Part shown: one piece after another, positions 9,991 to 42,303 of the stretch
Position numbering within the stretch: position 1 is the first letter of the stretch
Layout of the letters: every line of letters starts with the position of its first letter
Source of the DNA: Mesostigma viride
Taxonomy: Eukaryota; Streptophyta; Mesostigmatophyceae; Mesostigmatales; Mesostigmataceae
Direction: 5' to 3'
Assembly: GCA_009746045.1 (NCBI GenBank)
Contig: RPFO01000026.1
Location: forward strand, 1,403,515 to 1,467,514
Length of the DNA: 64,000 bases
The notes under the pieces: model-generated
The model's database searches: none
What the model was told of the DNA's origin: nothing
What the model saw: the letters and a program-made list of their open reading frames with translations, nothing else
Position numbers and translations under genes: made by a program

Positions 9991-10699
9991 GTGTGTCGCA
10001 CCTGGAGGTATGACTGCATGCTCACTTCGATCTACCGACCATGCAAGTAGTCAGTCATATATGCAGTACTTTATATGCACTAAACACATTTTACTCCGCA
10101 CCGCGCGATCTATTATATACCTCTTATTATAGACAGTTGTCTCATAAAACAAGCAAGATTGCATGAGCAGGCTCGAGCTACCATGGTCCGGATTCTCCCG
10201 ATTTCTGCATGGCCTGCGCTGGTTGTCTCCTTGATGAGATTGCATGATATTTAAAAATCACAAGTTGCTTGAACATGTTGTGGTATAGCACTTGAAGCTT
10301 ACCTCGAAGTATACACCCTGTTACTGATATAGATGGTTCTATATAGCTAGCTCAGTCAATGGTCTTTTCTTTCGTCTTCACTTTCACTTTGTCAATCAAT
10401 GTTAGAACATATGCTAGGAGCGTACCTTTTCTACTAATTCTACTTTGTTTTCTGTCTAGCAATATTTAATTTGCATTTTCCAGCAGCCTCCTACATACTC
10501 TCAACGTCGCTTCCCAGCTCTACCGGTCGGGATGCCTCCACACACCTTTGGTAACCCTTGTTAACATGCATCTTTGGGCTGCATGCTCCCTCTTCGTCAC
10601 TTCTACTTGTAAGTAAGTTCTCACACCTCACACACTAGGCCTGTTTTTTTTTTTGTGTGTGTGTGTTGTCATGTTGTTGTTGTTGTCATGTTGTACGTC
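9991..10699. other. Intergenic; no gene seen
   Basis: Apart from the dispersed repeat at 10168-10238 and T/GT-rich sequence running into the GGT array, nothing recognisable. Confidence 0.5.
10168..10238 (+). repeat. Dispersed CTCGAGCTACC repeat, right half
   Basis: Begins GCAGGCTCGAGCTACCATGG and ends GGTTGTCTCCTTGATG. It is shared with 6540-6612 (minus), 20120-20177 and 59788-59850. Confidence 0.7.
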
Positions 10700-12204
10700 G
10701 TGGTGGTGGTGGTGGTGGTGGTGGTGGTGGTGGTGGTGGTGGTGGTGGTGGTGGTGGTGGTGGTGGTGGTGGTGGTGGTGGTGGTGGTGGTGGTGGTGGT
10801 GGTGGTGGTGGTGGTGGTGGTGGTGGTGGTGGTGGTGGTGGTGGTGGTGGTGGTGGTGGTGGTGGTGGTGGTGGTGGTGGTGGTGGTGGTGGTGGTGGTG
10901 GTGGTGGTGGTGGTGGTGGTGGTGGTGGTGGTGGTGGTGGTGGTGGTGGTGGTGGTGGTGGTGGTGGTGGTGGTGGTGGTGGTGGTGGTGGTGGTGGTGG
11001 TGGTGGTGGTGGTGGTGGTGGTGGTGGTGGTGGTGGTGGTGGTGGTGGTGGTGGTGGTGGTGGTGGTGGTGGTGGTGGTGGTGGTGGTGGTGGTGGTGGT
11101 GGTGGTGGTGGTGGTGGTGGTGGTGGTGGTGGTGGTGGTGGTGGTGGTGGTGGTGGTGGTGGTGGTGGTGGTGGTGGTGGTGGTGGTGGTGGTGGTGGTG
11201 GTGGTGGTGGTGGTGGTGGTGGTGGTGGTGGTGGTGGTGGTGGTGGTGGTGGTGGTGGTGGTGGTGGTGGTGGTGGTGGTGGTGGTGGTGGTGGTGGTGG
11301 TGGTGGTGGTGGTGGTGGTGGTGGTGGTGGTGGTGGTGGTGGTGGTGGTGGTGGTGGTGGTGGTGGTGGTGGTGGTGGTGGTGGTGGTGGTGGTGGTGGT
11401 GGTGGTGGTGGTGGTGGTGGTGGTGGTGGTGGTGGTGGTGGTGGTGGTGGTGGTGGTGGTGGTGGTGGTGGTGGTGGTGGTGGTGGTGGTGGTGGTGGTG
11501 GTGGTGGTGGTGGTGGTGGTGGTGGTGGTGGTGGTGGTGGTGGTGGTGGTGGTGGTGGTGGTGGTGGTGGTGGTGGTGGTGGTGGTGGTGGTGGTGGTGG
11601 TGGTGGTGGTGGTGGTGGTGGTGGTGGTGGTGGTGGTGGTGGTGGTGGTGGTGGTGGTGGTGGTGGTGGTGGTGGTGGTGGTGGTGGTGGTGGTGGTGGT
11701 GGTGGTGGTGGTGGTGGTGGTGGTGGTGGTGGTGGTGGTGGTGGTGGTGGTGGTGGTGGTGGTGGTGGTGGTGGTGGTGGTGGTGGTGGTGGTGGTGGTG
11801 GTGGTGGTGGTGGTGGTGGTGGTGGTGGTGGTGGTGGTGGTGGTGGTGGTGGTGGTGGTGGTGGTGGTGGTGGTGGTGGTGGTGGTGGTGGTGGTGGTGG
11901 TGGTGGTGGTGGTGGTGGTGGTGGTGGTGGTGGTGGTGGTGGTGGTGGTGGTGGTGGTGGTGGTGGTGGTGGTGGTGGTGGTGGTGGTGGTGGTGGTGGT
12001 GGTGGTGGTGGTGGTGGTGGTGGTGGTGGTGGTGGTGGTGGTGGTGGTGGTGGTGGTGGTGGTGGTGGTGGTGGTGGTGGTGGTGGTGGTGGTGGTGGTG
12101 GTGGTGGTGGTGGTGGTGGTGGTGGTGGTGGTGGTGGTGGTGGTGGTGGTGGTGGTGGTGGTGGTGGTGGTGGTGGTGGTGGTGGTGGTGGTGGTGGTGG
12201 TGGT
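10700..12204 (+). repeat. Perfect (GGT)n array, about 501 units
   Basis: 1505 bp of uninterrupted GGT trinucleotide. It produces giant artificial reading frames (polyGly, polyVal, polyTrp; polyPro and polyHis on the other strand) that are not genes. The G-rich strand could form quadruplexes. The absence of a single variant in 1.5 kb implies very recent growth or an assembly collapse or expansion. Confidence 0.97.
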
Positions 12205-12339
12205 TCCACCGCGCCACAGGCATGACTAAGCCGTCGCCGCCCATTTCCGGTGGCTTGCGCCACCTTTACCCCAGTCAACCTGACCCGTCGCCCCTCGTGT
12301 TGGGCCGGGGACAACGCCTCCACCATCCGACGGCCCCAA

Positions 12340-13719: not shown

Positions 13720-16700
13720 ATGGGGTCAGACAACAAGGAACGACACCAGGAGCTGGTGCCTTTGACGCTTGGGCAGCCTTCCTCTACGAAAGCGCCGGGG
13801 AAGGCCAGGCAGATAACTTCTGTGAGGATTATGGGGATGACATGCGGCGCTTGCAGCACTAGTGTCGAGAATGCGCTAAAAGCTGTTCCTGGAGTGCACG
13901 CGGCATCTGTCTCGCTGATTCAGAACCAAGCAAGCATCACGTATGATCCCAGCGTTGCCAGTGTAAGCAGGGCTGTCTTGCTTTGCCAGTCATGCCGGGT
14001 TGTAAAAGGATAGCTCTCGCCACCCTTACGCAGTATTACTGAGTGCACATCTACATGGCTGCAATAATAGAGTTGCTGTTTGCTTCCCGGCGCCTCGCTG
14101 AGCGTGCCATGGCACTCGGGGCTTATTAATCAGGAGATGCAGCCACGCGTATTCCGCATGGTATAGTTGAAGCGGATGGAATATTTAAATCATCCGAAAG
14201 AAGCTCCCCTTGGATGTTGGCTGCACGTGCAGTCTATTAGCGCCGTTTGCACGTTGGTTAGGGTCACCCTGCGTCACAGTCCCTTGAATGCAGCACGGCC
14301 GACCCCATACCAACGTCTGGCCAGGGCACACTAATCACTTCGGCTGCATGTGGCAGTTGCTCTTGCTGAAGGGGCTCGTGAATGCGTAGTAGGTTGTGCT
14401 AGAACGGGCTTTTGTGGGGGGTAGAGGTAACGGACATGCACTGCGGGCTACGCTTTCCTTTGCATCATTTCCCTATTTGTTCATGTTTCTTACTTATCTA
14501 TGCCATGTTGCTTTATGTATGGAATCTCCTGGCAATCTTCAGACAGCTTGGCATTGTGCACACAGCGTTGCCAACAGTATTGTTGACACTCACCGGTGCT
14601 TTTGTGATGCCGTCGGGCTAGCTGTACCTAAAATGGATCACCCCTTTGATGGCTACCTGCTGCTGATGGAAGGAAGGTCCTATCCACCCCCCTCTCCTGG
14701 CATCTTATTTGGGCAGTCTGTGTCATACGCTTTGAAGGTAAGTGGCCTGCTGCTGTTTTCTTTCAACCGTGGAATGCTCAGCATAACTTTGCGAGTTATC
14801 CTGCTCTTCCTATCTATGCTGCAAATACTGGCTTCAATTTCTATTTCATTTTCTCTCTATTCCTGAACTATGCAAGGTACCCCGTCTCTTTCTATCTATG
14901 CTGCAAATACTGGCTTCAATTTCTGTTTCATTTTCTCTCTATTCCTGAACTTGTTTTCCACTTTTGTTTTTGTAGTTTTCTCGTCAGTACCGTCCATTGG
15001 GGCCACCCATCATAACGGATATGCCCACGACCGCCTGAAATAGTAATGCCCACTGCCTAAAGAAGCATTGCCCGCCTGACATAGCCAATGTCCGCCGCCG
15101 CCTACTACACTAATTGTGGCCACACCTGATATACTATGGTAATGCCTCCCACCGCCTCATATTCACCGACCCATCTCACACCCTGCCGCCTTACACGTAC
15201 TAATTCACGCCTCCGCCACACTAACCTTGACGCTCCACTTACATCGACTTTCATAAACATACAATATATTTTCAATGCATATTAACTCTGTCATATATTC
15301 TCAATTAATTTAATACTCACGCCTGCCCCCCACCAGGATGCCACCCTGCTAGAGGCGATTGAGGACTCTGGTTTTGAGGCCGAGGTGCTCCCCGGTGGGG
15401 GCTCGTGCGTCTACCACACGCTCGAGGTGGGCAGCTTCAGCGTGCCCGGGCTGTCGTCGGGCCATGACGCGCGCATGCTGGCGGACGCGGCGCGCCAGCT
15501 GGCGGGCGTGTTCTCGGTGACGGCATTTCCCGAGGCAGAGAAAGTGGAGATGGAGTTTGACCCTCAGGTAAGGTCGCTCTTTATAGTGAACTTGTAGTAA
15601 GATCTGCTGATGGTGTGGTTAGTGGCACAGAGAGTGGAGATGGGGTTTTGCCCGCAGGTAAGGCCGTTTGTTCGAGTTTGAAAGATGCCCTTGTGGGGGT
15701 GGTGGGAGGGAGAAAGTGGAGATATAGTTGTCTCACTTTTGGTGCCTCCCCCCCCCCGGTCACCAACATGCTTTTTTCCCTTACGTACAGGCAGCTGTCT
15801 GTCTCAGTTAATGCCTATCAAATGCTACCCCCCTTTCCCCCTTTCCCCCCTTCCCCAACCTGGACCACTAGGCCAACCCATGGCCACGGCATACGTATGG
15901 TTTTCTCACTCAATGCGTATAAAGAACTCTCTTCCCAGTCCCCCCCAACACAAGACGACACGATGCGACGCGACGCAGCACAGCACAGCACAGCACAGCA
16001 CAGCACAGCACAGCACAGCACAGCACAGCACAGCACAGCACAGCACAGCACAGCACAGCACAGCACAGCACAGCACAGCACAGCACAGCACAGCACAGCA
16101 CAGCACAGCACAGCACAGCACAGCACAGCACAGCACAGCACAGCACAGCACAGCACAGCACAGCACAGCACAGCACAGCACAATCCAGCGCAACACAACA
16201 CAATGCAGCACAATCCCCAGGTCCCCAACGACCACGGCATACATGTGGATGTCTCACTTGATGCCTATTGACCTCTTGATGCCTATTGAAAACTCTCCTC
16301 CCTCCCCCCCCCCCCCCGCACCACCACCACCACCCCCTCCCGCCAGGTGACGGATGGCCACGGCATCGTCGCGACGATGGAGTCGATGGGTTTTGAGCTG
16401 GAGCTGCTCACCCACAGCGCCCAAGAGGTGACCACGCTGCTCGTGTCCGGCATGACGTGCGCATCCTGCACCTCCAGCGTGGAGCAGGCCATCCGAGGAA
16501 TACAAGGGGTGCTCTCGGTGGACGTCAGCCTGATGACGGAGCAGGTATACGTCGTGATCATGAATGTGGTCAGGTGTTCGCTATTACGAATGTGGTCAGG
16601 TGTTCGCTATTACGAATGTGGTCAGGTGTTCAATATCATGAATGTGGTCAGGTGTTTGCTATTACGAATGTGGTCAGGTGTTCAATATCATGAATGTGGT

Positions 16701-19700
16701 CAGGTGTTTGCTATTATGAAGGTGGTCAGGTGTTCGCTAGTGTGAATGTGGTCAAGTGTTTACTATTACGAATGTGGTCAGGTGTTCAATATCATGAATG
16801 TGGTCAGGTGTTCGCTATTATGAATGTGGTCAGGTGTTTGCTAGTGTGAATGTGGTCTGGTGTGCACTAGTGTGAATGTGGTCAGGTGTTCGCTAGTGTG
16901 AATGTGGTCAGGTGTTCACTAAAAGGCACAGCACTTGAGTGCTCCGCGAATGTCTGCCTGACGATTGAGCACGTAGGGTCCATTGACAACCTTGTCAGTA
17001 TAAACATACTAGTTTGTAATAACAGGCATGTGCGAAGCCTGCGGCGGCGTCCATGTCCATGTGGACGAACCTGCAGCTAGATCAGGTATTTTTCGTGGCT
17101 TGTTTTACTACTTTATGCTCGTTTTGCTAATATTTTCGGTGAGGCAATGTGTGCCCCTCATTGCACCTGTTGCGCATTCCTCGCCCATGTAAGACTACCT
17201 CAGCGCCTTATTGGGATCCATCACCCCTTATTTCCCATTGTATTGCCCCTATACTACGGGCCTCTTTGCCCCGCCCCCCACCCCCCCACCCCCACCCCTG
17301 TGTACCTGTATTGTGCGCTTATTCCCCCTATTACACACACCCTGGTCTCGTCCCCCCCCGGCCCTGCCCGCTCCTGGCCCCTCAACCTTCTCGCCCTTCA
17401 TCCCCCCGGCCTACACCCCTCAACCCCGCCGCAGCGACTTTACCCCCCCTCTTCCTGACCCTGCAACGTCTTTGCCCCTCAACTTCCTGACTCCGCAACG
17501 TCTTTGCCCCCCAACTTCCTGGCCCCGCAGGCGGTGATTCGTTTCAACCCCAACGTGACCGGCCCCCGGTCGCTCATCCAGGCGGTGTCAGACGCCGGCT
17601 TCACTGCGCGGCTGTACCTGGAGGATGAGCGCACGTTGGGGCCGGCGGCCAGCTCCCACCTGCAGGAGATGCAGCGCTGGCGGTCACTCACCATCATGAG
17701 TGCACTATACACGGTGTGTGGGTGCGCGGTGATCTTTGGGCCTTGACTGGGGTGGTGGTGTATTGTTGAGGCTTAAGTTTAGGTGCATTGCGTGTGTGCT
17801 AGCTGGAGCGGCCTCCAGCTCCCCAACCCGCGGGAGATGCAGTTCTGGCGGTGACTCACGCCCCCACAAGTGCTCTCTGGATAGTGGGGTATCGGGAGTA
17901 GGTTAAGTTCCGCATGAAGTTGCCTTCACAAGCAAGTCGAACGAGTTGAACATAAGATAGCGCAGCTTGCTGATGAGTTTCAGGCTGTGAGTAGCACGTG
18001 GAGTCGTGGACGTCCGACACAAGAACGGCATTGGCGTGAAAAGGACTGGGGAAGCAAATGCGGGGCGGAGGCTTCACTGTTCTTTTTTTGGGGGGGGGGG
18101 TGGAAGGGGGGGGGGAGAGATTACTGGGTAGGAGGGGGGTCAGCCGGGGGGGTAACCCAATGTTGTAGGTGTCTGCAAATGCTGCACTCTTTGCTCTCTC
18201 GCCTACAGCTTGCAAGCTATAGGTGCAAGCTTCACAACTGTCTTGAATCCCGTACGCTTGTGTTTGTGTCCTGTGAGCTCAGTAGCCCCAAAGTCAGGTG
18301 CGTTTAGTTGAACAAAGAAACTCCCCCCCTTTCAATTATACCTCCTGGGCTTGAGCTTTTGACGTGTTCTTAGGACATCATTTTTGTGTCACTCTTGGCT
18401 GATTTTCGGCCTAATGATTGCTCTCTTTGCCCGAGCCACCCCACAAAGATCCCCCCACGGGTCTGCCCTTTGCCTAGCAGCCACTCCCACCCAATTTGGT
18501 CCCCATACTTACTCGCATCCCTTCCGGCACCTCTTCCGTGCCCCGGTATGCCCCTCCTCCTCCCCCCGCCCCCCCCCTCCAGGCGCCCCTCTTCCTGATC
18601 GCCATGGTTCTCCCCCACATCCCCGGCCTCTGCGCCCTCCTTGAGTACAAGCTCTGGATGGTCGGGCTCGGTGACCTGTTCAAGTGGGCGCTCTCCACCC
18701 ACGTTCAGTTTGTCGTCGGCTGGCGCTTCTACGTCGGCGCCGTCAAGTCGCTGTCCCACGGCGCCGCCAACATGGATGTGCTGGTTGCGCTGGGAACAAA
18801 CGCGTCCTATTTCTACTCGGTCTTCTCGGTGCTCTATGGGGCTATCTATCCGGACTACCACGGCACCGATTTCTTCGAGACGTGAGTGTTTGGGTGGATG
18901 CGGGTGGGGTAGATTGACCACCTGGCTGGCTGGTTTTGACTGCCGGTTATTTAGGTGGGGTTATCTCGGCTGAGAGACCACCTGACTGCCTGATTTGTTC
19001 GAGACATGAGTGGGCTCTAGAAGCTGGGGACATGGGTTATGTAGGTAGGGTTATTTAGGCTGAGAGACCATGTAGCTGCCTGATTTGTTCGAGGCGCGAG
19101 TGGGTTAGAGAGACTTCATTGTCAGTGGGCTTGAGAGGCCTGATTATGTCAAGATGTGAGCCTTTGGATGGACCATGTGACTGCTTGAGCCTTAACAGTA
19201 CGCTTTTAAAAGTACACCTATTACGTAGACCTGTGTAGGTTAGGGAGGCTTGTGTTATTCCCTTATTATTTTAAGACTTGAGTGGGTTAGGACTTGCATA
19301 TGTGACATGAGCTTGTCTAGTGTGTCTTGATAGTGTCTAGTGCTGGGATCCATCCAGGATACCACCGTGGGATATCAGCAGTCTGTACCCTGCCCTTGCG
19401 TCCATCACAAGCTGCCACAGAGTCTTCTTCGGTTTGAGGTATCCCTCTGTGCTTATTCTATCACCTCCCCCATGCCCTGTCCCTGCCCCACTCATTTCAC
19501 CCCATGGCTGTTTTCAACCTTCAGGTGTCATCCGGCTTCCTGCCCCCTTCCCTGCCCCCTTTGCTGCCCTCCTCCCTACCCCCCTCCCTTCCCCCCTCGC
19601 TGCCCCCTTTGCTGCCCTCATGCCTACCCCCTTCCCTGCCCTCCTCCCCGCCCCCTTCCCTGCCCTCATTGAAAATGCCTGCCCACCTTCAGCTTTGCGA

Positions 19701-22700
19701 TGCTGATCACATTTGTCCTGCTCGCCGCTCCCTACCCCTTTCCCTTCCCTCTTCCCTGCCCCCTTTCCTCAATGGAACAGTTTCCTGTTAGCTGGGCAAT
19801 GCTGATAACGGTCGTCCTGCCTCCTTCCCCCTTCCCTACCCCTTTTGATTGCCCTGTTTCCTTGTCGGCATATTCTCTGGTATTTCCTTCTAAATGGTGG
19901 GAGAGCGATTGCAGCAATGGTGCTCACCACTAGACACTCCCAGCCAGTTAGGCTCGAAACACACGCCCTGATCACGCAAGATGTTTCCGGCCCCACCATC
20001 TAGGTCATCTAGTTGCTCTTAGCGTTCGCAAGCCATGATTTCAACGAACAAGCCTACACATTTCCATCTCCATTCATATCCATCATCATGAACGACTTGA
20101 AAACGCGGATAAGAGAATGGCAGGCTCGAGCTACCTTGGTCCGGATTCTCCAGATTTATGGCCTTCTCTGGTTGTCTCATTGATATCCCTTCAGCTCTCT
20201 CTGATGCTGATCGCGTTCATCCTGCTTCCTCCCCCCTATCCTGCCCCTTTCGCTGCCCTATTTCCTTATCGACACATCCCTTCAGCTCGGCGATGCTGAT
20301 CACGTTCATCCTGCTGGGCAAGTGCCTCGAGTGCCTGGCCAAGCATAAGACGAGCGAGGCCATCTCGAAGCTGATGCAGTTGGTGCCACCGTCCGCCACG
20401 CTCATCACGGTCGACGTGGATGGCAACGTGGTCACCGAGGAGGAGATCGACTCCACACTGGTGCAGCGGGGGGACCTGCTCAAGGTAGGACGAGAACGGC
20501 TCATAGAATAGCAATCTGGGTCGTTGGCGTGGGTAGTGTGGCAATGTGTTGATGGAGGAGGAGATGGACTCCACGCTGGTGCAGCAGGCGGACCTGCTCG
20601 AGGTAGGAGGAGAACGGTTCATAGAATAGCAACCGCGGTGGGGTGTTGTTGGTGTGGGTGCTTTTAAACCTGGGTAACGGAGGAGGAGATGGACTCCTAG
20701 GTCTAAGATACAGGGTATGAACGTACATAGTGAGAGTACGGGCACGGGTGGGTGCGTAAATACGTTAGGTACGTGATGCGGAGGAGATCGGATGCACGCT
20801 GGTGCAGAGGCGGGACCTGCGCAAGGTATCAAGCCGATGGGCCGAGGGGCGGTAGCATTAGGTGGGAACAAGTCCCGTGACGCCTGCCCGGCTCTGACGT
20901 GTTTTATCGAGCACCTCCTCAATAGCTATATCGTATAGCATAGCTGCGACGAGCGCTGTCTAAGTGTGCTTGTCCCAGCTGTGCTAACTTCAATGGTTGC
21001 CCTGGAGCCTCCATGCTGGCTGCTTCTCCCCCTCTCCGCCCCCTCCCCCCCCTCTCTTTGATCATGCCGGGCACCGGAATGTTCGCCTAACTGACGTATT
21101 CATGCCACCCAGCTCCGCCCGCCCGGCCGCCCCTTGTTGTTTGCCTCCCCCCCATCCCCCCAAAAATCCTACCAGGCCCTCTACCAGGCCCTCTATGGAT
21201 GCTACTACTGAAATAAGTCATGGTTTCCCCTCCGCCATAAGTCATGCTGATTGCCTGACCCCCACACCAGATCCTTCCCGGCGATGCTGCGGTGTTGCAT
21301 CTACTACGCCTTTGGCCCCCCACGCTGCGTCTCGGGGTCTGCCTCTCCCCCCCCCTACCTCCCTTTATTCCTACATGACGCAAAGAGACATTTCAGTCAT
21401 AAGTAATAGCAATGCCTTTATTGATACTACTGGCCCTTTTATTTACACTACTGGCCCTCCTTTATTCCTACATGACGCAAAGAGACATTTCAGTCATAAG
21501 TAATAGCAATGCCTTTATTTATACTACTGGCCCTTTTATTTACACTACTGGCCCTCCTTTATTCCTACATGACGCAAAGAGACATTTCAGTCATAAGTAA
21601 TAGCAATGCCTTTATTAATACTACTGGCCCTTTTATTTACACTACTGGCCCTCCTTTATTCCTACATGACGCAAAGAGACATTTCAGTCATAAGTAATAG
21701 CAATGCCTTTATTTATACTACTGGCCCTTTTGTTTACACTACTGGTCCTCCTTTATTCCTACATGACGCAAAGAGACATTTGAGTCATAAGTAATAGCAA
21801 TGTCTTTATTGATACTACTGGCCCTTTTATTTACACTACTGGCCCTCCTTGTGCCTCCCCTTCGTGTTTGCCTCCTCTTCCCTCCCCCCCCCCCCCCCCC
21901 CCCCCTTTTTTCTAAATCCTGCCCGGTGCCAAGATGTTTTCTTGGCTACTTGGTGCTTGCCATGCTCTATTTTTACTGCTGGAACCCGCCCCAAATATGG
22001 ACCCCAGATCCTACCCGGCGCCAAGATCCCGGCGGATGGGACCGTTGAATGGGGCCACTCGTACGTCGACGAGTCGATGCTCACCGGCGAGAGCGTCCCC
22101 GTGGGCAAGCGGCCCAAGGACCGCGTCATCGGCGGCACGGTGAACACCACGGGCATGCTGCACGTGAAAGCAGAGCATGTGGGCAGTGACACGGCGCTGT
22201 CGCACATCGTGAGGCTCGTGGAGGCGGCGCAGATGAACAAGGCGCCGATCCAGGGGTTTGCCGACAAGATCTCCAGCTGGTACGTGCTGGGTGGGCCCGC
22301 ATGCGTGTATCCTTTTTCTTGTTAGAAGCAGCGTTGCAGGGTCGCTGGGTGTTGGAGAGGCATTTTATTGAGCCAAGCACCGACAAGGTCTCCAGCGCGT
22401 GCGGGGTTCATGGTCCTGCTTACGTGTGTATTGCTATCTGTTACGCGGCTATATCGCTATCGTTTGCGTGGCTGTATCGCTATCGTTTACGCGGCTATAT
22501 CGCTATCGTTTACGTGGCTATGTCGCTATCGTTTACGTGGATATATCGCTATCGTTTACGTGGCTATGTCGCTATCGTTTACGTGGATATATCGCTATCG
22601 TTTACGTGGCTATATGGCTATCGTTTACGTGGCTGTATCGCTATCGTTTACGTGGCTGTATCGGTCTCATTGGTGTCAGTGCAGGGAAATAAGCACCTGA

Positions 22701-25700
22701 CTTTGATGCCATCTCCAGCTGGTACATGGTTGCAGGCCTGGTGATGGTTATTTTAAAAGAGCGTTTCGACCGTACAGGCACTGACACGATGTCCAGCTGG
22801 TGCATGGTACATGGTTTTTGTATCCATATTTTATGATTACCACTACATATCATATAACTAGAATATTACGACCACGATCGCAGCGGTTCCTAGTGAACAT
22901 GTAAAAACGGGTGGTCCCTGGCGCACTTGATGCATCGAGCATATTATTACTACCATTAGTTTAGCTACCTTTGCTATCGGATAAGCACCAACACGATCTC
23001 TCTAGCGGGTGCATTATGACCTAAGGCCCAGCTATGTGTTTAGGTGCGGTCCGTGAATAATATGCGCTACTTGGGCGGTTCCTTGTAAGTCTTGGCACAA
23101 ACAGCACCCCCAGCAGTGCCTTTTCCCTCCCTCGGCACGCTTTCCGCCATTTCCCCCCGACTTTTCACCCCCTCCTTTACCCCCCTCCCCCTCGCCCCAT
23201 CCCCCTCCATGTCCCCCCCCCCCCCCTTTCCCCCCTTCTCCTCCCCCTCTCCCCTCCCTGAAACCCTTCCCCCCTCCAAAACCTTTCTTCCCCTCCCTCG
23301 TCCAAATCCCCCCCCCCCCCAAACCCCAGGTTTGTCCCCGCGGTCGTCGTGCTGGCGTTCTTCACCTGGCTTGTCTGGTACATCTGCGGCCGCATGCGCA
23401 TGTACCCGGCCTCGTGGCTGCCGGAGCACACGGACGACTTCCTGCTGGCGCTCCTGTTCGGCATCGCCGTGTTGGTGATCGCGTGCCCGTGCGCGCTGGG
23501 CCTGGCCACGCCCACCGCGGTCATGGTGGGCACGGGGGTGGGCGCGATGCAGGGGATTCTGATCAAGGGAGGGGACGCGCTGGAGCGCACGTACAAGGTG
23601 GGTGGTGGTCCATGGTCCGTGGAGGGCAGGGTCTACATGGGAAGGCGGTGGTGGTCCACGTTGGTTGCGGTCAAGGTGGGCGGCGGGCTGCTTACATGGG
23701 AATAAGGCACGGTGGATTAGGGCGGCATGCAGGAGTTCTTAGTCAAGGGAGGGGACGCGAGGGAACGCACGTACCAAGTTGGGTGGTCGATGCTCCGTCG
23801 GGGGCAAGGTGGGCGGCTTTTCTCCTACGAAACCAGCTCTTGATGCGGATCCCAACAACAGCCGCGCCAACATCTTGCAACGTCACCAACAACTGCAACG
23901 GCACCGACATCCCGCAACGTCTGTGATGTTTCACGATGACAGCAGCACCTCCTAGCAAGACTTTGACATCTCGTGATTTTACTGTTGTAAGTAACATACT
24001 GTTATAATAATGTACTTCTAGTAGAAGTACCATTTGCTAACAGCATGGAAATGCCCCTTTCTCTCCGGTGGCTGGTCCTTCTGGCCTTGGTCACATATCC
24101 TCTGGTCCCGCAGATCTCATGCGGCGTGTTGGACGAATATGTATGGTTTGTAATGTTACCCACTCGACAGCACAGACGAACTCAGGGGGTTGGACTGTGA
24201 AAGTCTTGGCTGAAACGTTCCACTTCTCTCGTGGCAACGCGCGCAGGTCTCGTGCGTCGTATTTGACAAGACGGGCACGCTCACGCAGGGGCGGCCCGAG
24301 GTCACCTCCCACAAGCTGGTGCACGCCTCGCTCAAGATGAACGACGTGCTGCCGCTGGTCGCCGCGGCGGAGGTAGGAGGACCGCCACTCGTAGCGTACT
24401 GCTCTACATATCGGCGCTAGCCAGCATTTAGTTTACCATTACCATTTAGTTTGCTGCTTGCCTTGACGATATGTATAGTCGTGTAGGAGCACTCAAATAC
24501 CAGCTCAAGCGCCACACGGTGACGCTGTTGATGTCGTGGCAGAAGGGCATGCAGCTGCTGGTGGCCGCGGCAGAGGTTATGTGGTCGCGCTGCCAGCCAG
24601 ATTGTCATGGCCAAAGATGCCGGCTTGCTTACCCGGGTGGGATATCATAAGCATGCGGGTGCCCAGTGCCAGCCTACCTACTCCCACCAACCTTGATGGT
24701 GATAGCAGCATGCGAGAGCCCTGTGCCAGCCTACCTACTCCCACCTACATTTTGCGGTGAGCAAATGGCCCCCCATGGTAGTTGTCCCGTCTGAGGTGCG
24801 TGGCGGATCTAAACTAGCAGCTGTGGTTCAAAGCGTCGATCATCGAGAAGATAAATCTAAGACAAGAGATAAATTCTGTGAGTTTCAAAACGCGGTAATG
24901 GAATCTTAATCATAACTGTTTATCTAATTCACTTTGGGAGACCCATGGACCTATTTTCCTACTCATTTGCGCGAATATGCTTTCCTCATGTGGCGCTTGA
25001 TAGACTTTGGCTTGGCTTTTTGGCTTTGGCTTCGGCTTTGGCTTTTCGGCTTTGGCTGCTTTGCTTGGCCTTTTTGGCTTTGGCTTTGGCTTTGGCTTTT
25101 TGGCTTTTTGGCTTTGGCTGCTTTGCTTGGGCTTTTTGGTTTTGGCTTTGGCTTTGGCTTTGGCTTTTCGGCTTTGGCTTTTTGGCTTTGGCTGCTTTGC
25201 TTGGGCTTTTTGGTTTTGGCTTTGGCTTTGCACATGCATCTCAGGAAACACTATGCAGTAGTTAATTGCAATGTTCTGTGATGTGTTAGTTTCAACGCTT
25301 GGGCTTTTTGGTGTTGGCTTTGGCTTTGCACATGCATTTCAGGAAACACTATGTAGTAGTAAATTGCAATGTTCTCAGGATACACTATGTAGTAGTAAAT
25401 TGCAATGGTCTGTGATGTGTTAGTTTCAACGTTCTGTGATGTGTGCCTCTTGACCGCCACGCTTCCCGGATGAGTGCTAGTGGGCAGTCTCCATCCGTTG
25501 TTTTGTCTATTGGGCAGCCGTGTGGCGGCGGCGCCACTTTCCCCAAACCTCCCCCCTCTAACCGCCTCCCCCCCATCCTCCCCCTCTTTAACCGCCTCCC
25601 CTCCCCCCCCCCCCCCCCCGCGCCCGGGTATGCGGACGATTGGGCCCCACCAGGCGTGCAGCGAACACCCACTGGCCCAAGCCATCATGTCATTCGCGCG

Positions 25701-28700
25701 GCTGCAAGTATTGGGACCCAGCGAGGGCAGCCAGTCCAGCCACCGGGGTGGTTCGGGCCAAGGTGCGGAGTGGGGGGCCTACTGTCAATTTCCCATAGCT
25801 TGCAATAGGGAGGTTTGCCGGATGCTCGTGTTTCCACTACTACATCAGTTTTGCATATTTTCTATTGATTTCCCGTTGCCACGTTCCTTGCCGCGTTCCT
25901 TTGGTTGTGAAAGGTGCCACCTGAGACTTGTTACTAGGTGTACGTACCGCCCTCTGAAACGGCCGAAACTGGTACGCTGCCACGATTCAAGCGCAGGACC
26001 TCTGGCAGACGTTCCGCTACTGCATGGGTCTCTCGATCCAAAGGCATCCCAAACCTCTGCCTGTTGCCAATCGTCTGCATGCTCATGCCCATCTCAATGT
26101 TTGGCTCGGTCAGTTGTATGCCTTCTTTGTTGATCGTATGATCCGATGAGCGCTTTTCTTGAGCTGCGCTGTGTACTCGGTTGACAAAATTGGACATTTC
26201 CCTGACACCCCTCCACCCTACTACCTTGCGACCCTGCAACGCCCTGCACCCCCGACACCCCCTGGCTACACCCCGCTAATCCCGCACAGGCAGCAGTAAC
26301 CGCGCCAACGGTGCCACTCCACCCCCCGCAGGCACCACCACCAACAAGCCCTCCCCATCCAGCAACCCCACCTCCCAAGCCACCGGTGGGAGCAACCGAG
26401 GCAAGCCAGGCGGCGGGGCAGGCAAATCCGGGGTCGGGGGAGGAAGCGCCCACGGCAGTGTGGCCAGCCAAGATGTGTCGTGGTACCCTCGTGCTGAGGA
26501 GGTCGTGGTGGAGACGGGCAAGGGCATCCGCTGCCGCGTGAACGGGGCCAGAGTGTTGGTGGGCAACCGGATTCTGCTCGTCGAGAATGGGATCCCGGTC
26601 CCGCCAGAGGCCGAGCATTTCCTGACCGACGTGAGTCCAGGCATGGCTAGTCACTACACCCTAGACCTTGTACCCTAGACCTCATACCCTAGACCTCATT
26701 CCCTAGACCTTGTACCCTAGACCTTATACCCTAGACATTATACCCTAGACATTATACCCTAGACCATATACCCTGGACCTTTTACCCTAGACCTCCTATC
26801 CTAGACCTCATACCCTACACCCCAGAGCACGAAATGGGATATCTGTCTAGGATGCCGAGCACTCTATAACCAACGTGAGTATATGCGCGCTACAGGTAAG
26901 ACCTGGTCTTCAGACCTAGGCAGTGGATGGTAGCATTATAGTCGGGGCACCTTGAACCAGCGTGAGTATAGAACATGCTGGAATCTAGACTGTTGGCTGT
27001 TTCAATTCACTTCCTTGACCCCGCCCTTTTCCCCACAATTTCCCCATGCCCCCCCCCCCCCCGCCGCCCTCCTCGTACCCCCAGGTCGAAAGCCGTGCGC
27101 ACAAATTACCTCGCCAATCTAACCTTCCCGTATATTCTTCATGCCGCCAACTTTTGTCCACCATTCTTCTTTGTCCTCAATTCCTCCCCCCCCGCCCCAG
27201 GCCGAGAGCCGCGCACGCACGGGCGTGCTTGTTGCCATCGATGGCACTGTCGCTCTGGTGCTGGCGGTGTCGGACCCGCTCAAACCGGAGGCCGCGATGG
27301 TGGTGGCCGCGCTGCACCAGATGCGCATCACGGTCTTCCTTGTCACGGGGGACAACAAGCGCACCGCGGCCGCGATTGCAGAGGAGGTGAGGGGCTTTCT
27401 TACGCGAGGATCCAAAGAGGAGGTGGGGGAGGTTCATGCTGAGGAGGGGCATCTTCTACGTGGCCGACACTGCTGTTCTGTAACATGCTACTCCGATGCC
27501 CGAAGTCTATCTATCTGAAGTCTATCTGTGCAATGTCTCGACCCAACCGCCAGCCCAGGGGGCATCTTCAATGTGGCTGCCATCCTGCTACCTGACATTC
27601 TACCCCTAGTGTTTTGAATCTATCTGTACATGATTATTCACTAGACACTTCGGCTTCTTCCATAGGCCTCCGACCAACCCCCGGTGACATCTTCAATGTG
27701 GCGGCCATTGTGTCACCTAATACTCTGTTCCTAGTGTTGGAATCCATGTTGTGTCACCTAGCACTCTGCTCCTAGTATTGCAACCCATGTGTAATTTTGT
27801 ACCTGCACCCGCCCCCAGGTGCGCATTTTCAACGTGGCGGCCCATGTGTCACCTAACCATGTGTTCCTAGTGTTGGAATCCCTGTGTGATGAATTGAATC
27901 CATGTGTTCGTACCTGCACCCGCCCCCAGGTTGGCATCTTCAACGTGGCGGCCGAGGTCCTCCCCGCCGGCAAGGCCCAAAAGGTGAAGGAGCTCCAAAG
28001 CGACGGCTTTGTGGTGGCCATGGTGGGAGATGGCGTGAACGACTCGCCCGCGCTGGCGGCCGCGGATGTGGGCATGGCGCTCGGGGCGGGGACTGATATC
28101 GCGATGGAGGTAGGCTATATTGTAATTGTAGTATAGAACAAGAGGCCAAAAAGCGATATGAGTGGGTAAGTGTTATTTCTCAAACATGGGCATCACGATG
28201 GAGGTGGGTTCTTTATTATATAGAGCAACAGGCCAAACACAGCGCTAGGATGCGTTATTTCTTATACATGGGCATAACGATGGAGGTGGGTTCTTCTTAT
28301 ATAGAACAACAGGCCAAACATGGCGAGAGGATGCATTATTTCTTATAGTAGTGCATGAGCATCGCGATGGAGGTGGGGTGCTCTGCATCAAATGACAGGC
28401 TGGCATAGCGATTTGGATGGGCCATTCCCTTAGTCATAATTTTGTCATTCCCTTATCATGGACCCACATGGCGATGGAGTCGGTTAACATATAGAATGGA
28501 CATGAAGCGAATCAAGTGGTGTTTTCTATTTATTAGTTGGATTGACACTGTGAAAGACGTGGGTTATATTTAGACTGGGAGTATATGGATGGGTCGGCAT
28601 GGGTAAGGAAAGGGGTTGGCGTTTATAGACCAACATAGCATCTCCTGCCCCCTGTCTCCTGCCCCTTGTTCCCTGCCCCCTTTCCCTGCCCACCTTCCCC

Positions 28701-29069
28701 CTGCCCCCCGCCTCGTATCCCCCCCATCCCCCCCCGGTGCAGGCGGCGGATTTCGTGCTCATGCGCAGCAACCTGGAGGATGTGATCACCGCGATCGACC
28801 TCTCCCGCAAAACCTTCCTCCGCATCTGCCTCAACTACATCTGGGCGCTCGGCTACAACGTGCTCTCCATCCCGATCGCCGCCGGCTTGCTCTACCCATC
28901 ACTCCGCTTCCGGCTGCCCCCATGGGTTGCTGGCCTGGCCATGGCCTTCTCTAGCGTCTCCGTCGTGTGCTCCTCCCTATTGCTGCGCTATTACCAGCGG
29001 CCCACATTCCCAAGTTCGGTCCCCCGGAGGCCCGAGGTGCCTACCAGACGGGGGAGTGACAGTGTGTGA
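13720..29069 (+). CDS. Cu(+)-transporting P1B-type ATPase (RAN1/HMA7-HMA5 type)
   Basis: This pump moves Cu(+) out of the cytosol, in plants into secretory compartments or across the plasma membrane. Exons: 13720-13962, 15337-15567, 16347-16544, 17531-17713, 18583-18881, 20286-20484, 22008-22279, 23330-23597, 24247-24372, 25654-25762, 26290-26630, 27201-27386, 27930-28109, 28743-29069. All joins keep phase, giving about 1053 residues (plant homologues about 1000). Domains in order: metal-binding domain with MTCGAC (exon 1), a second HMA-like fold lacking CxxC (exons 2-3), a third with MTCASC (exon 3), membrane helices, TGES actuator loop (exon 7), [12 protein letters not shown] metal channel (exon 8), DKTGTLT phosphorylation site (exon 9), SEHPLA nucleotide-binding motif (exon 10), [14 protein letters not shown] hinge, and final helices YNxxxxP and [12 protein letters not shown]. 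The exon 10/11 join encodes a Gly/Ser/Pro linker inside the nucleotide domain; this join is the least certain. Introns make up most of the gene. Confidence 0.95.
15618..15735 (+). repeat. Echoes of exon 2 end in intron 2
   Basis: Two decayed copies of the exon 2 3' edge lie here. The copy at about 15623-15668 includes GAGAGTGGAGATGGGG and its own CAGGTAAGG donor. A shorter one at about 15706 has GAGAAAGTGGAGAT. The source is 15531-15575. Confidence 0.8.
15976..16182 (+). repeat. (CAGCA)41 microsatellite in intron 2
   Basis: A near-perfect pentanucleotide array that keeps several frames open on both strands (repeats of S-T-A-Q-H); it is not coding. Confidence 0.95.
16562..16925 (+). repeat. 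26-bp x 14 minisatellite in intron 3
   Basis: The unit is GAATGTGGTCAGGTGTTCGC plus a variable six bases (TATTAC, AATATCAT-type or TAGTGT). It starts 17 bp after the exon 3 donor. Every unit carries an internal CAGGTGTT, a cryptic donor-like string. Confidence 0.9.
17801..17890 (+). repeat. Echo of exon 4 end in intron 4
   Basis: It resembles 17640-17720: GGGAGATGCAG, CTGGCGGT and ACTCAC are conserved in order, then AGTGCTCT against AGTGCACT. It is diverged and not open in frame. Confidence 0.7.
18991..19110 (+). repeat. Echoes of exon 5 donor in intron 5
   Basis: TGATTTGTTCGAGACATGAG (18991) and TGATTTGTTCGAGGCGCGAG (19081) copy the exon 5 edge at 18866-18887 (GATTTCTTCGAGAC then GTGAGT). 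Confidence 0.8.
19687..20230 (+). repeat. Three echoes of exon 6 start in intron 5
   Basis: Copies at about 19687-19724, 19783-19820 and 20187-20230 each repeat the exon 6 acceptor edge, CTTCAGC followed by GATGCTGATCACGTTCATCC with changes. Each is followed by a C/T-rich tract. The real edge is 20280-20318. The dispersed repeat at 19898-20180 lies between copies 2 and 3. Confidence 0.85.
19898..20180 (+). repeat. Dispersed CTCGAGCTACC repeat, longest copy
   Basis: The left half (GCGATTGCAGCAATGGTGCT ... TAGGCTCGAAACAC) matches 56697-56830. The right half (CATTTCCATCTCC ... GGCTCGAGCTACC ... GGTTGTCTCATTGAT) matches 59728-59852 and the shorter copies at 6540 and 10168. The left half has a loose B-box-like TAGGCTCGAAAC, so a SINE is possible, but no target duplication was found. 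Confidence 0.65.
20537..20830 (+). repeat. Three echoes of exon 6 end in intron 6
   Basis: The first (20540-20628) is about 90% like the real edge (20437-20515), including GTGCAGC, GACCTGCTC, the AGGTAGGA donor and 25 bp of intron beyond it. Weaker copies lie near 20677-20700 and 20777-20828. Confidence 0.88.
21364..21848 (+). repeat. 97-bp x 5 tandem repeat in intron 6
   Basis: Units begin TTTATTCCTACATGACGC and end near CTACTGGCCC. They are almost identical at an exact 97-bp period. They lie just upstream of two echoes of the exon 7 start (about 21266-21292 and 21914-21940). Confidence 0.93.
22439..22668 (+). repeat. 23-bp x 10 minisatellite in intron 7
   Basis: The unit is close to TATCGCTATCGTTTACGTGG plus CTA. 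The 23-bp period leaves all three plus frames open, so the resulting frames are not genes. Echoes of the exon 7 end flank it (22376, 22702, 22776, 22978). Confidence 0.9.
23723..23800 (+). repeat. Echo of exon 8 end in intron 8
   Basis: Copies 23543-23614: GCATGCAGG..TTCT, then TCAAGGGAGGGGACGCG, GAACGCACGTAC and GGGTGGT, including the donor region. It has a frame-breaking insertion and no function as an exon. Confidence 0.82.
25006..25327 (+). repeat. (GGCTTT)n-like minisatellite in intron 9
   Basis: A hexamer-based array (TTGGCTTTGGCTTTGGC) with TTTTT and CTGC interruptions. The main block is 25006-25230, with a small block near 25296-25327. It is followed by a repeated GCACATGCATxTCAGGAAACA segment. 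Confidence 0.9.
26659..26820 (+). repeat. 14-bp x 11 minisatellite in intron 11
   Basis: The unit is CCCTAGACCTTGTA with minor variants. It resembles a telomere-like CCCTA core but is interstitial and 14 bp long. Confidence 0.9.
27555..27860 (+). repeat. Three echoes of exon 13 start in intron 12
   Basis: GGCATCTTCAATGTGGCTGC (about 27560), GACATCTTCAATGTGGCGGC (about 27686) and CGCATTTTCAACGTGGCGGC (about 27822) precede the true GGCATCTTCAACGTGGCGGC at 27933. The third carries a good CCCCCAG acceptor. Segments around them (ACCTGCACCCGCCCCCAG, TGTCACCTAA) are duplicated too. Confidence 0.88.
28185..28480 (+). repeat. Echoes of exon 13 end in intron 13
   Basis: GGCATCACGATGGAGGTGGG, GGCATAACGATGGAGGTGGG and GAGCATCGCGATGGAGGTGG repeat the exon 13 donor edge (GATATCGCGATGGAG then GTAGGC) at roughly 80-100-bp spacing, with the following TATAGAACAACAGGCC also copied. 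Confidence 0.85.
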
Positions 29070-33548: not shown

Positions 33549-34125
33549 ACAGAGGATATGGGGGGCCTCTCCGTGATTTAATTGGAAAAATTAATTAATT
33601 AATTAATTAGACTCGTGCTCCCGTTGGGGAGTCACGGAGCATTAACCCCGAGGGATGGATGGATGGGAGCAAACAGTCCTACCGGTCTAATCTATCTACA
33701 TCGGCTACATACTACATCTATCTAACAGCATTCTAACTACAACATCTATCTAGACAGCCGCACGCTGCCCTAGGGGAGCTGTCTGGCGTGCCTCCCACGG
33801 GATTGCACACGCGGGCGCTTCCCCACTGGGGGGGGCTCGTTGTCCTCTATGACCTGGGCCCACTTGGCCTTGTCCATCATCTTCTTCCAAATCACAGAGA
33901 GGCCGAGGCCCCCCATGTCCTCTACTAGCTGTTCTTTGAAGGTGCGAAGTGCGGCGTCTTTAAAATTGGAAAAAGATGCGGGACAAGGCCAAGTGGGTCC
34001 AGGTAGACGAGGACAATGACCCCCCCGCTGTATGGAAGAAGCGTGCTAATTTGCACTTAGTGGTCAAGAATGCTAGAAGAGACAGCTAGAGTCTGGCTCC
34101 CTCTAATTTAATTAAGAACATACCT
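33549..34125 (+). mobile_element. Old LINE 3' fragment, split by another
   Basis: The plus-strand remnant GGGGGGCCTCTCCGTGATT (about 33560) resumes at 33975 with GATGCGGGACAAGGCCAAGTGG, the same C-terminal coding remnant as in the other CCAT-tail copies. It ends near TAATTTAATTAAG. The minus-strand fragment 33591-33964 is inserted in it. Confidence 0.7.
33591..33964 (-). mobile_element. LINE 3' fragment, CCAT-tail family, nested
   Basis: Flanked by a 10-bp duplication ATTGGAAAAA (33581-33590 and 33965-33974). On the minus strand it holds the coding remnant, CCAT run, hairpin CTCCC-CAAC-GGGAG and an ATTA tail. Confidence 0.85.
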
Positions 34126-34429
34126 CCGTAGACTTGCTCTACATCTAGTCACCCCCCCGAGCGCCGCCGCCCCTGCCCCCGCCCTGATTGGACCTGCCTA
34201 CGCGCCCCGTCTGCGGGCGCCGGGAGAAGTGGTCCGAGGAGGAGACGCGCCGCGACGCACTCAGGTCTGCCTTCGTGGCGAGCTGCGCAACCTTTGATGC
34301 ACCTGGATGCCGAATGCGGCATGGATCTCACGCCACCCTACGAACTGTTCTGCATGGAACTACAACATGCAACATAAGTGAGGTTGTCTCCTTGATAAGT
34401 GTGTACATATCGACGTCATACACACATAG

Positions 34430-35427
34430 CTCGCACCAGCCAGGTAGACACCTCACGTGGCCCCTCCGCAGGGCTGCGCCCCGCTCAGCCGGGCAGTCAC
34501 CTCCTCACGTGGGCCGGGCCCAGCCAGGTTAGACGCCGCAAGGCCCGCGCACCTTCAAAGCTACAGCAGCTCGTAGAGGACATGGGGGGCCTAGGCCTCT
34601 CTGTGATTTGGAAACAGATGATGGACAAGGCCAAGTGGGCTCAGGTCATAGAGGACAACGACCCCCCTGCAGTGGGGAAGCCGCGCGTTTGCTCACGTGG
34701 GAAGCATGACAAGACCCCTAGGGTCGCGGGCACTATAGATCTAGAGTAGGACTGGTTTTGTAGATAGCTTAATCCGGTAGGATTGCGTGTACCCATCCAT
34801 CCATCCATCCATCCATCCATCCATCCATCCACCCACCCACCCACCCACCCACCCACCCACCCACCCACCCACCCACCCACCCACCCACCCACCCACCCAC
34901 CCACCCACCCACCCACCCACCCACCCACCCACCCACCCACCCACCCACCCACCCACCCACCCACCCACCCACCCACCCACCCACCCACCCACCCACCCAC
35001 CCACCCACGCACCCACGCACCCACGCACCCACGCACCCACGCACCCACGCACCCACGCACCCACGCACCCACGCACCCACGCACCCACGCACCCACGCAC
35101 CCACCCACCCACCCACCCACCCACCCACCCACCCACCCACCCACCCACCCACCCACCCACCCACCCACCCACCCACCCACCCACCCACCCACCCACCCAC
35201 CCACCCACCCACCCACCCACCCACCCACCCACCCACCCACCCACCCACCCACCCACCCACCCACCCACCCACCCACCCACCCACCCACCCACCCACCCAC
35301 CCATCCATCCATCCATCCATCCATCCATCCATCCATCCATCCATCCATCCATCCATCCATCCATCCATCCATCCATCCATCCATCCATCCATCCATCCAT
35401 CCATCCATCCATCCATCCATCCATCCA
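34430..35427 (+). mobile_element. LINE 3' fragment with hugely expanded tail
   Basis: 34430-34790 carries the same coding remnant ([22 protein letters not shown]) as 9532-9914 and 49440-49980. Where those have a few CCAT units before the hairpin, this copy has a 0.6-kb CCAT/CCAC array (34793-35427), and the terminal hairpin is missing. Confidence 0.75.
34793..35427 (+). repeat. CCAT/CCAC tetranucleotide array with block structure
   Basis: Blocks in order: CCAT (to about 34830), CCAC (to about 35007), alternating GCAC-CCAC (to about 35100), CCAC (to about 35302), CCAT (to 35427). Long frames reading THPP or GWVG are by-products. Confidence 0.95.
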
Positions 35428-41700: not shown

Positions 41701-42261
41701 CAGCGGCGAACACAAAAGACCAACACCACCTTGGCCAGACGTACCGCTGCCAGCGAAGAAAAACCGCCAGCCACCCGCCAAGCGATCAGTGCTCACCATG
41801 CCAAGTGGCACCGTGCGGCGGTGTTCCTGGACGCCTAATATAGACACACGATGCTCAATGCAGAATGCGACTAGCTCCTCTACCCGGCAGCTATGGTCGT
41901 CATCTAGCAATGTGCGGGTGTTAAAAGTGGCAAGGGCCAAGGATGCCTGCTGGCCCACCAGGGGAGGACGACGATGGGTGATGGGGGTGGATGCGGCGGG
42001 GGGTGGAGGTGGGGGTGAAACGGAGGGGGGAAGGGAAGCGGTAGAAATAGTGCTTTTCATCGCATTTATTTTGTCCTGCAAGCGTAGGATGCGAGCCTGC
42101 CGCTTGCTCGGGGTATTCGGGGTTGGGGCTGATTGCACAACGCCGAGGCGTAGGTAATCTAGCAAACGTTGGGTTTTACGAATCTGACATTTGACAGATG
42201 AGGTTGTGGCCCGAAATACCGGCACCACCATGGCTTTCACCCGACGGTTAGGTCGAGGCAT
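38786..42261 (-). pseudogene. LINE ORF2: AP-endonuclease plus reverse transcriptase, frameshifted
   Basis: ORF2 nicks target DNA and copies element RNA by target-primed reverse transcription. The endonuclease part (42261-about 41000) shows TFNTRTL, GVQEHR, LLDANA, CLDYVVV and CSDHRLV, the metal and catalytic set of APE-type nucleases. The reverse transcriptase (from about 40480 down) shows YRGVCL, MGFRSGRN, VLIFVDYIKAFD, GVWQGCVLSP and LIYADDT, all expected motifs. The two parts lie in different frames. The shift falls near a run of nine C (minus strand) at about 40581-40589, so it may be one indel or a sequencing slip. The product ends with a Pro/Lys-rich tail and has no obvious zinc knuckle. 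Confidence 0.9.
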
Positions 42262-42303
42262 GGTAGTGGAACGGGACTGTTTAGAGGCTGTCTCCGAAGC
42301 CTG

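Follow-up and report, generated by a model that had tools for sequence, protein, structure and literature searches.

Introns of Mesostigma viride (Streptophyta) carry direct, partly decayed copies of the exon edges that border them, referred to here as echoes. The pattern was noticed in a gene for a Cu-transporting P1B-type ATPase. This gene lies in a stretch of 64,000 nucleotides of contig RPFO01000026.1 (assembly GCA_009746045.1, positions 1,403,515 to 1,467,514), the whole of which is called the window in what follows, and it is confirmed that echoes also occur in other genes of the genome. The most likely mechanism is ordinary tandem duplication together with selection, and we give a probability of about 0.75 to the reading that frequent local tandem duplication, at times across the exon-intron junction, explains the echoes when combined with selection.

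Echoes in the introns of the copper-ATPase gene

The rebuilt model of the gene comprises 14 exons and 13 introns, and its open frame of 1053 amino acids plus the stop codon is uninterrupted across all exons. All 13 introns have GT..AG borders, and the Pfam domains found in the product are HMA, E1-E2_ATPase and Hydrolase. A preliminary description of this DNA, made from the sequence alone and with an intron numbering that agrees with the rebuilt model, had claimed that at least nine of the thirteen introns contain decayed copies of the adjoining exon edge. Two tests bear on this claim. In the first, junction-spanning probes of 55 nt were compared with 300 shuffles in 26 tests, and results with p ≤ 0.01 were counted, of which about 0.26 are expected by chance. 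The second and stricter one used a probe of 40 exon bases without any intron base, which was compared with the best of 100 dinucleotide shuffles of its own intron.

With the junction-spanning probes, at least one echo was detected in 11 of the 13 introns (p ≤ 0.01 against shuffles), so that the original estimate holds. Donor echoes are present in ten introns (2, 3, 4, 5, 6, 7, 8, 9, 11 and 13) and acceptor echoes in five (5, 6, 8, 11 and 12); the nine donor and four acceptor introns that had been named are all included, as is the acceptor example at 27067-27103. The donor of intron 12 and the acceptor of intron 2 were borderline (p=0.013), and introns 1 and 10 gave no echo with these probes. 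The exon-only test was passed by seven donor edges (introns 2, 4, 6, 7, 8, 9 and 13) and by four acceptor edges (introns 2, 5, 6 and 12), while donors 3, 5 and 11 and acceptors 8 and 11 failed it and therefore rest partly on intron bases. Own-intron matches beat the dinucleotide shuffles, and a base-composition artefact as the source of the echoes is thereby ruled out.

The matches are also specific to the proper intron and to the edge of the exon. When exon edges were paired with introns of unrelated genes, a score of at least 24 was reached in only 18/2752 donor and 30/2752 acceptor pairs. Regarding exon interiors, 0/109 tiles located at least 80 nt from the junction in the kinesin genes described below match their own intron, and in the exons of the copper-ATPase gene no 30-nt donor tile at least 75 nt from the junction, and no acceptor tile at least 30 nt from it, reaches a score of 24. 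The positions of all echoes are given in Table 1. Two further repeats were seen in this gene: a young internal tandem array in intron 6 (21362-21850), with five copies of a 97-bp unit that are 97% alike, and a CAGCA pentanucleotide array of 41 copies in intron 2 (15976-16182).

Table 1. The copper-ATPase gene and the echoes in its introns (window positions; p values from junction-spanning probes).
Feature	Position	Strand	Remarks
Cu-transporting P1B-type ATPase gene	13720..29069	+	14 exons, 13 introns, stop included; gene model and Pfam
Intron 2, two donor echoes	15624-15666, 15706-15729	+	p=0.003; exon-only passed
Intron 3, two donor echoes	16942-16975, 17061-17097	+	p=0.003; exon-only not passed; absent from preliminary description
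Intron 4, donor echo	17845..17876	+	p=0.007; exon-only passed
Intron 5, three donor echoes	18976-19012, 19082-19102, 19137-19170	+	p=0.003; exon-only score 24, not above best shuffle
Intron 5, three acceptor echoes	19686-19722, 19777-19820, 20185-20226	+	p=0.003; exon-only passed
Intron 6, two donor echoes	20563-20617, 20786-20828	+	junction-spanning and exon-only
Intron 6, two acceptor echoes	21264-21283, 21916-21935	+	p=0.007; exon-only passed
Intron 7, three donor echoes	22380-22407, 22711-22728, 22783-22806	+	p=0.003; exon-only passed
Intron 8, donor echo	23737..23787	+	p=0.003; exon-only passed
Intron 8, acceptor echo	24109..24134	+	p=0.003; exon-only not passed; absent from preliminary description
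Intron 9, donor echo	24542..24577	+	p=0.003; exon-only passed
Intron 11, donor echo	26851..26880	+	p=0.010; exon-only not passed
Intron 11, acceptor echo	27067..27103	+	p=0.007; exon-only not passed; example given in preliminary description (27080)
Intron 12, four acceptor echoes	27448-27464, 27544-27581, 27673-27706, 27804-27847	+	p=0.003; exon-only passed
Intron 13, donor echoes	28192-28220, 28361-28377	+	inside array with 82-bp unit; both tests and extended alignment

Occurrence in other genes and form of the copies

The published assembly of M. viride has 441.8 Mb in 2363 scaffolds and a mean intron length of 1142 bp, and junction duplications are not described in the main-text passages of the genome paper (PMC6947507). 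The genome searched here comprised 439.9 Mb in 2243 contigs. From it, a comparison sample of 42 introns outside the copper-ATPase gene was drawn (26 kinesin, 13 chaperonin and 3 myosin), which makes 55 introns when the 13 of the discovery gene are added; the median length of the introns is 646 nt. For the kinesin set, exon matches in the genome gave 34 loci and 30 derived introns (two pairs lacked a boundary), of which 26 were kept; the chaperonin set kept 13 of 14 (one without boundary) and the myosin set three of five (two without boundary). Among the rows left out, the donor of one myosin intron (L048) scored 25, and four kinesin introns carry no score. In the course of this sampling, a kinesin locus (L008) was found in which neighbouring exon matches lie about 8 kb apart, much of the gap being taken up by a 60-bp minisatellite. 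The contig pairs C2/C622 and C887/C1641 hold near-identical gene copies on short contigs (L014 and L036, 99.95% alike; chaperonin matches with equal scores), which are probably uncollapsed duplicates.

A copy of an exon edge in its own intron was counted at a score of at least 24, and the expectation was taken from the introns of other genes. Over the four gene sets, 22/55 donor edges (40%) and 8/55 acceptor edges are copied, the expected numbers per 55 being 0.36 and 0.60. The copper-ATPase gene, with 8/13 donors and 4/13 acceptors at this threshold, stands at the high end of the sampled sets; the remaining introns together give 14/42 and 4/42. Among these, the kinesin set has 11/26 donor and 3/26 acceptor edges copied (0.17 and 0.50 expected), the chaperonin set 2/13 and 1/13, and the myosin set 1/3 and 0/3. 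Matches of at least 24 in the reverse complement were found for 0/52 kinesin edges, which rules out inverted or dispersed copying.

The copies are direct and mostly head-to-tail: in 11 of 17 extended alignments that overlap the exon, no more than 12 nt separate the original from the copy, and in the other six 21-89 nt do. Donor lags range from 47 to 263 bp (median 118.5), and the largest of them may be multiples of a unit; the best donor exon-edge copies begin 28-251 nt into the intron. Acceptor lags range from 89 to 542 bp, and four acceptor echoes at 224-542 bp lie well inside the intron. The clearest case is the kinesin intron L002, where a 70-bp block made up of 20 nt of exon and 50 nt of intron on the two sides of the junction is duplicated in tandem, the second copy following directly and matching the first perfectly (100% identity). 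Identity at the duplication lag extends 12 bp past this unit, as if slippage had begun at a short repeat. Identity to the exon is 70-95% in the other copies; the first donor copy of intron 6 has a lag of 118 bp and is 82% identical over 114 aligned bp. The 107 perfect repeats found in 324,361 bp lie mostly within longer arrays and show no clean distribution of microhomology.

Several of these features bear on the nature of the event. The alignments pass through the donor into intron sequence, which rules out retroposed mRNA and upholds the earlier view of the echoes as genomic duplications. In searches that skip common words, the echo region of intron 6 is a single genomic locus, whose sole other match is the parental exon edge, and a 1001-bp stretch over intron 2 is likewise single. 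The single locus, the local head-to-tail form and the presence of intron sequence in the copies therefore identify them as local tandem duplications, and neither as mobile elements nor as retrocopies. The idea that the copies lengthen the intron is supported as well, and the copies differ greatly in age, from 100% identical to barely detectable.

Two other sources deserve consideration at this point. Introners or other transposable elements with duplicated target edges could have entered the introns, as such elements are described to invade the introns of many algae (PMC9860276). This explanation is rejected on the single-locus stretches of introns 6 and 2 and on the edge copies, which are private to their own intron (see the 18/2752 cross-gene donor pairs above) and adjoin the original instead of lying at the far end of an insert; its probability is very low. 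An assembly artefact, in which haplotype copies or long-read errors were joined in tandem, is just as hard to believe. It would agree with the complete identity of the best case, L002, and with the existence of near-identical duplicate contigs (L014 and L036, 99.95%). Nonetheless, the divergence from the exon is 5-30% in most cases, and copies are found in four gene sets and on many contigs. Setting aside matches inside arrays, L014 and L036 agree at 99.95%, and their comparison gave no polymorphic duplication.

A proposed mechanism of tandem duplication with selection, and the role of the junction

According to the proposed mechanism, introns of this genome would undergo frequent local head-to-tail tandem duplication, with units of roughly 50-200 bp. 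Some of these units, as the alignments show, overlap the junction and thereby bring into the intron a copy of some tens of bases from the end or start of an exon, together with the splice site and adjoining intron sequence. Splicing would continue at the old junction, and the original exon edge would be frozen by purifying selection; the copy would decay neutrally as intron and would sometimes be amplified further. Duplications that break splicing or the reading frame would be lost. Such a loss of damaging duplications would explain why exon interiors lack copies, why donors outnumber acceptors and perhaps why the copied exon pieces are short.

The excess of donors over acceptors (22/55 against 8/55; Fisher p=0.005) persists when the discovery gene is left aside (14/42 against 4/42; p=0.015). 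After a duplication that spans the donor, the correct donor is transcribed first, while after one that spans the acceptor it is the wrong acceptor that comes first. From general knowledge of splicing, a filter acting through splice-site choice would therefore favour donors. In ungapped extension, the copied exon piece has a median of 26 nt and exceeds 45 nt in only 3/22 donors, and the acceptor pieces measure 17-30 nt in 8/8 cases. A gapped recheck weakened this short-piece bias, which is suggestive: a clear reach of at least 60 nt was seen in four of 22 donors (L021 and introns 4, 6 and 8), and four more have weak isolated tiles. The asymmetry and the short pieces would both fit filtering by splice-site choice.

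As for the fate of the copied sites, 17 of the 20 donor copies that could be scored still have the GT, where identity predicts 14.9; compared with the real donor, the copied one has a lower score in 12/20, an equal one in six and a higher one in two. The copied GT is thus neither clearly preserved nor clearly purged, and both GT retention and donor scores are what neutral decay would give. If the copies were instead retained as decoy or spare splice sites that regulate splicing, one could point to the same 17 GT dinucleotides and to the 8/20 copied donors whose score equals or exceeds that of the real one. We regard this as improbable: GT retention matches the expectation and hinges on how the sequences are aligned, 12/20 copied donors are weaker than the real one, the copies decay to background, and their number and position vary among introns.

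A different question is whether the junction itself is special. The preliminary description held that it is repeatedly duplicated while the old copies decay, those nearest the exon usually being the best preserved. Among nine junctions with two or more copies, the nearest one does score best in eight and ties in the other (acceptor of intron 6), but some margins are of only 1-2 points, so that the tendency is weak to moderate. Copies of the junction are real, but intron interiors also carry local direct copies, and the junction is not shown to be the target. This can be seen from the frequency of 30-nt tiles with a direct copy within the next 300 nt, calculated for the 40 of 42 non-Cu introns that have at least 330 nt: 0.258 for the last 30 exon bases, 0.233 for the first 30 intron bases, 0.137 for the next 30 and 0.059-0.120 deeper in the intron, with deeper exon tiles near zero. 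With this measure taken over 39 introns, the value was 0.325 at the exon edge, against 0.036 for about 97 kb of flanks and 0/3802 for random intron pairs. Intron interiors thus undergo duplication as well, and the process is not confined to junctions. Of the copper-ATPase introns, 10.2% is covered by Tandem Repeats Finder (TRF) arrays with periods between 30 and 250; the share is 4.3% for the other introns and 1.6% for the flanks. Coverage by local direct duplicates along the window was 0.04-0.47 in the 2-kb bins between 14001 and 30000 (eight bins) and 0-0.10 in the remaining 24 bins.

The same tile frequencies can be read in terms of junction-targeted duplication. In this case, tandem duplication in this lineage would strike splice junctions, above all donors, preferentially and repeatedly, through a DNA event coupled to transcription or splicing (e.g., transcription itself, R-loops or splicing-coupled breaks at the donor). 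Introns would grow from their ends inward, or from their 5' end if the donor is the hot spot, with older copies pushed towards the interior, and the short exon piece would be the footprint of the event or the amount of exon needed to make a decoy work. The high values at the donor exon edge and in the first 30 intron bases, the ranking of the nearest copies and the short exon pieces are in its favour. However, wholly intronic tiles at 30-60 nt show no clear peak (7/39 introns vs 4-7 of 34-40 deeper), the copper-ATPase gene has no donor peak (0.41, 0.23, 0.21 and 0.44 in successive bins), and acceptor copies exist too. On balance, we consider targeting of the junction unlikely. The excess at the exon edge would arise, at least in part, because selection freezes the exon copy and divergence builds up on one side only. 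It can be argued that visibility alone leads to an approximately twofold excess, and most of the focus on the junction may be of this kind.

Several observations weigh against frequent local duplication plus selection as a complete account. The donor exon edge is copied two to three times as often as the intron interior. The flank baseline of the tile measure comes from one chromosome region of mixed content, with values ranging from 0 to 0.118. Random placement predicts that 11.8 of the 22 donors reach at least 60 nt into the exon (1% quantile 7), compared with the four, or up to eight, observed; at lags of up to 130 bp, 2/14 do so when 5.9 are expected (1% quantile 2). This suggests that purely random duplication without added selection does not yield the short exon pieces. 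The chaperonin set (2/13 donors) is weaker than the discovery gene, and the long alignments of L013, L019 and intron 9 are only 55-60% identical, which makes their unit ends unreliable.

Other features of the window and genome were recorded. Window positions 10613-12229 hold a (TGG)n trinucleotide array without interruptions; it measures about 1.5 kb and is open in every frame listed. An inverted repeat at 33650-34809 has arms of about 200 bp (82.7% alike) located some 570 bp apart, with a second outer pair of 51 bp. On the minus strand, two overlapping long frames at 38789-42303 carry RVT_1 and Exo_endo_phos domains and probably belong to a non-LTR (long terminal repeat) retrotransposon, and a frame at 62671-63687 has a weak match to GPHH (voltage-gated calcium channel IQ-associated domain), so that a calcium channel gene may start there. 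Among the proteins encoded by the genome are light-harvesting ones of the LHCII type, close to their green-plant counterparts; four light-harvesting genes on contig C1457 (2.34-2.88 Mb) have equal profile scores, suggesting recent copies or gene conversion.

Relation to known systems

The lengthening of introns is usually attributed to transposons. In M. viride, a visible proportion of the introns has been lengthened by copies of their own junction, so that the sequence itself keeps a dated account of how introns grew. With every event a further splice site, at first identical to the original, is placed at a known distance, and the set that survives is therefore a natural experiment on splice-site choice. 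It bears on which of two equal donors or acceptors is tolerable, and on how much exon a decoy may carry. An open-access literature search, with subscription papers mostly outside its reach, found no paper in which existing introns are reported to be lengthened across a genome by tandem duplications that span the junction. The earlier remark that the pattern has no standard name is fair, but boundary tandem repeats (PMC2812944) and intron gain by tandem duplication (PMC4974935) have already been published.

In the potato RdRp gene, an intron is described as gained by tandem duplication, with new splice sites derived from a duplicated AGGT; the same study reports an 83-bp tandem duplication in the first intron of the gene that left its structure unchanged (PMC4974935). 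As in that gain, a local head-to-tail copy of exonic sequence becomes intron in M. viride. Unlike in potato, where a new intron is born, an existing intron grows here, with the copy inside and the working splice sites unmoved. In human genes located in segmental duplications, internal tandem repeats at exon-intron boundaries, with 27 intron modifications, have been reported (PMC2812944). Those repeats also straddle the border and are spliced out or alternatively used; they concern recent primate paralogs and alternative transcripts, whereas the echoes affect 40% of the sampled donors and most of the copies are old.

Direct repeats associated with splice sites are shared with the report of Rogers and Bendich (2025), in which repeats of 4-30 bp, one per intron end, are read as insertion footprints (PMC11782384). 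The repeats of M. viride are longer and are head-to-tail units, and original and copy lie at the same intron end instead of one at each. Introners resemble the echoes in that repetition supplies intron sequence (PMC7789003, PMC9860276), but they are described as multi-copy across genes (PMC7789003), while the copies found here are private to each intron and, in the cross-gene pairs and the genome searches for the stretches of introns 2 and 6, no similar sequence recurs in many introns of different genes.

The echoes also resemble minisatellite-type local tandem duplications. Minisatellite arrays in introns expand in tandem with imperfect units, and the introns of this genome hold many arrays of this type. 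The echoes share with them direct head-to-tail copies, a spacing equal to the unit length, and copies private to the locus, as judged from the cross-gene donor and acceptor pairs and the single-locus stretches. They differ from ordinary intronic minisatellites in that the first unit can include constrained coding sequence. The echoes are most likely a variant of the already known tandem duplication and not a new kind of process, and their value resides in their high frequency, their donor bias and the test of splice-site choice that they offer.

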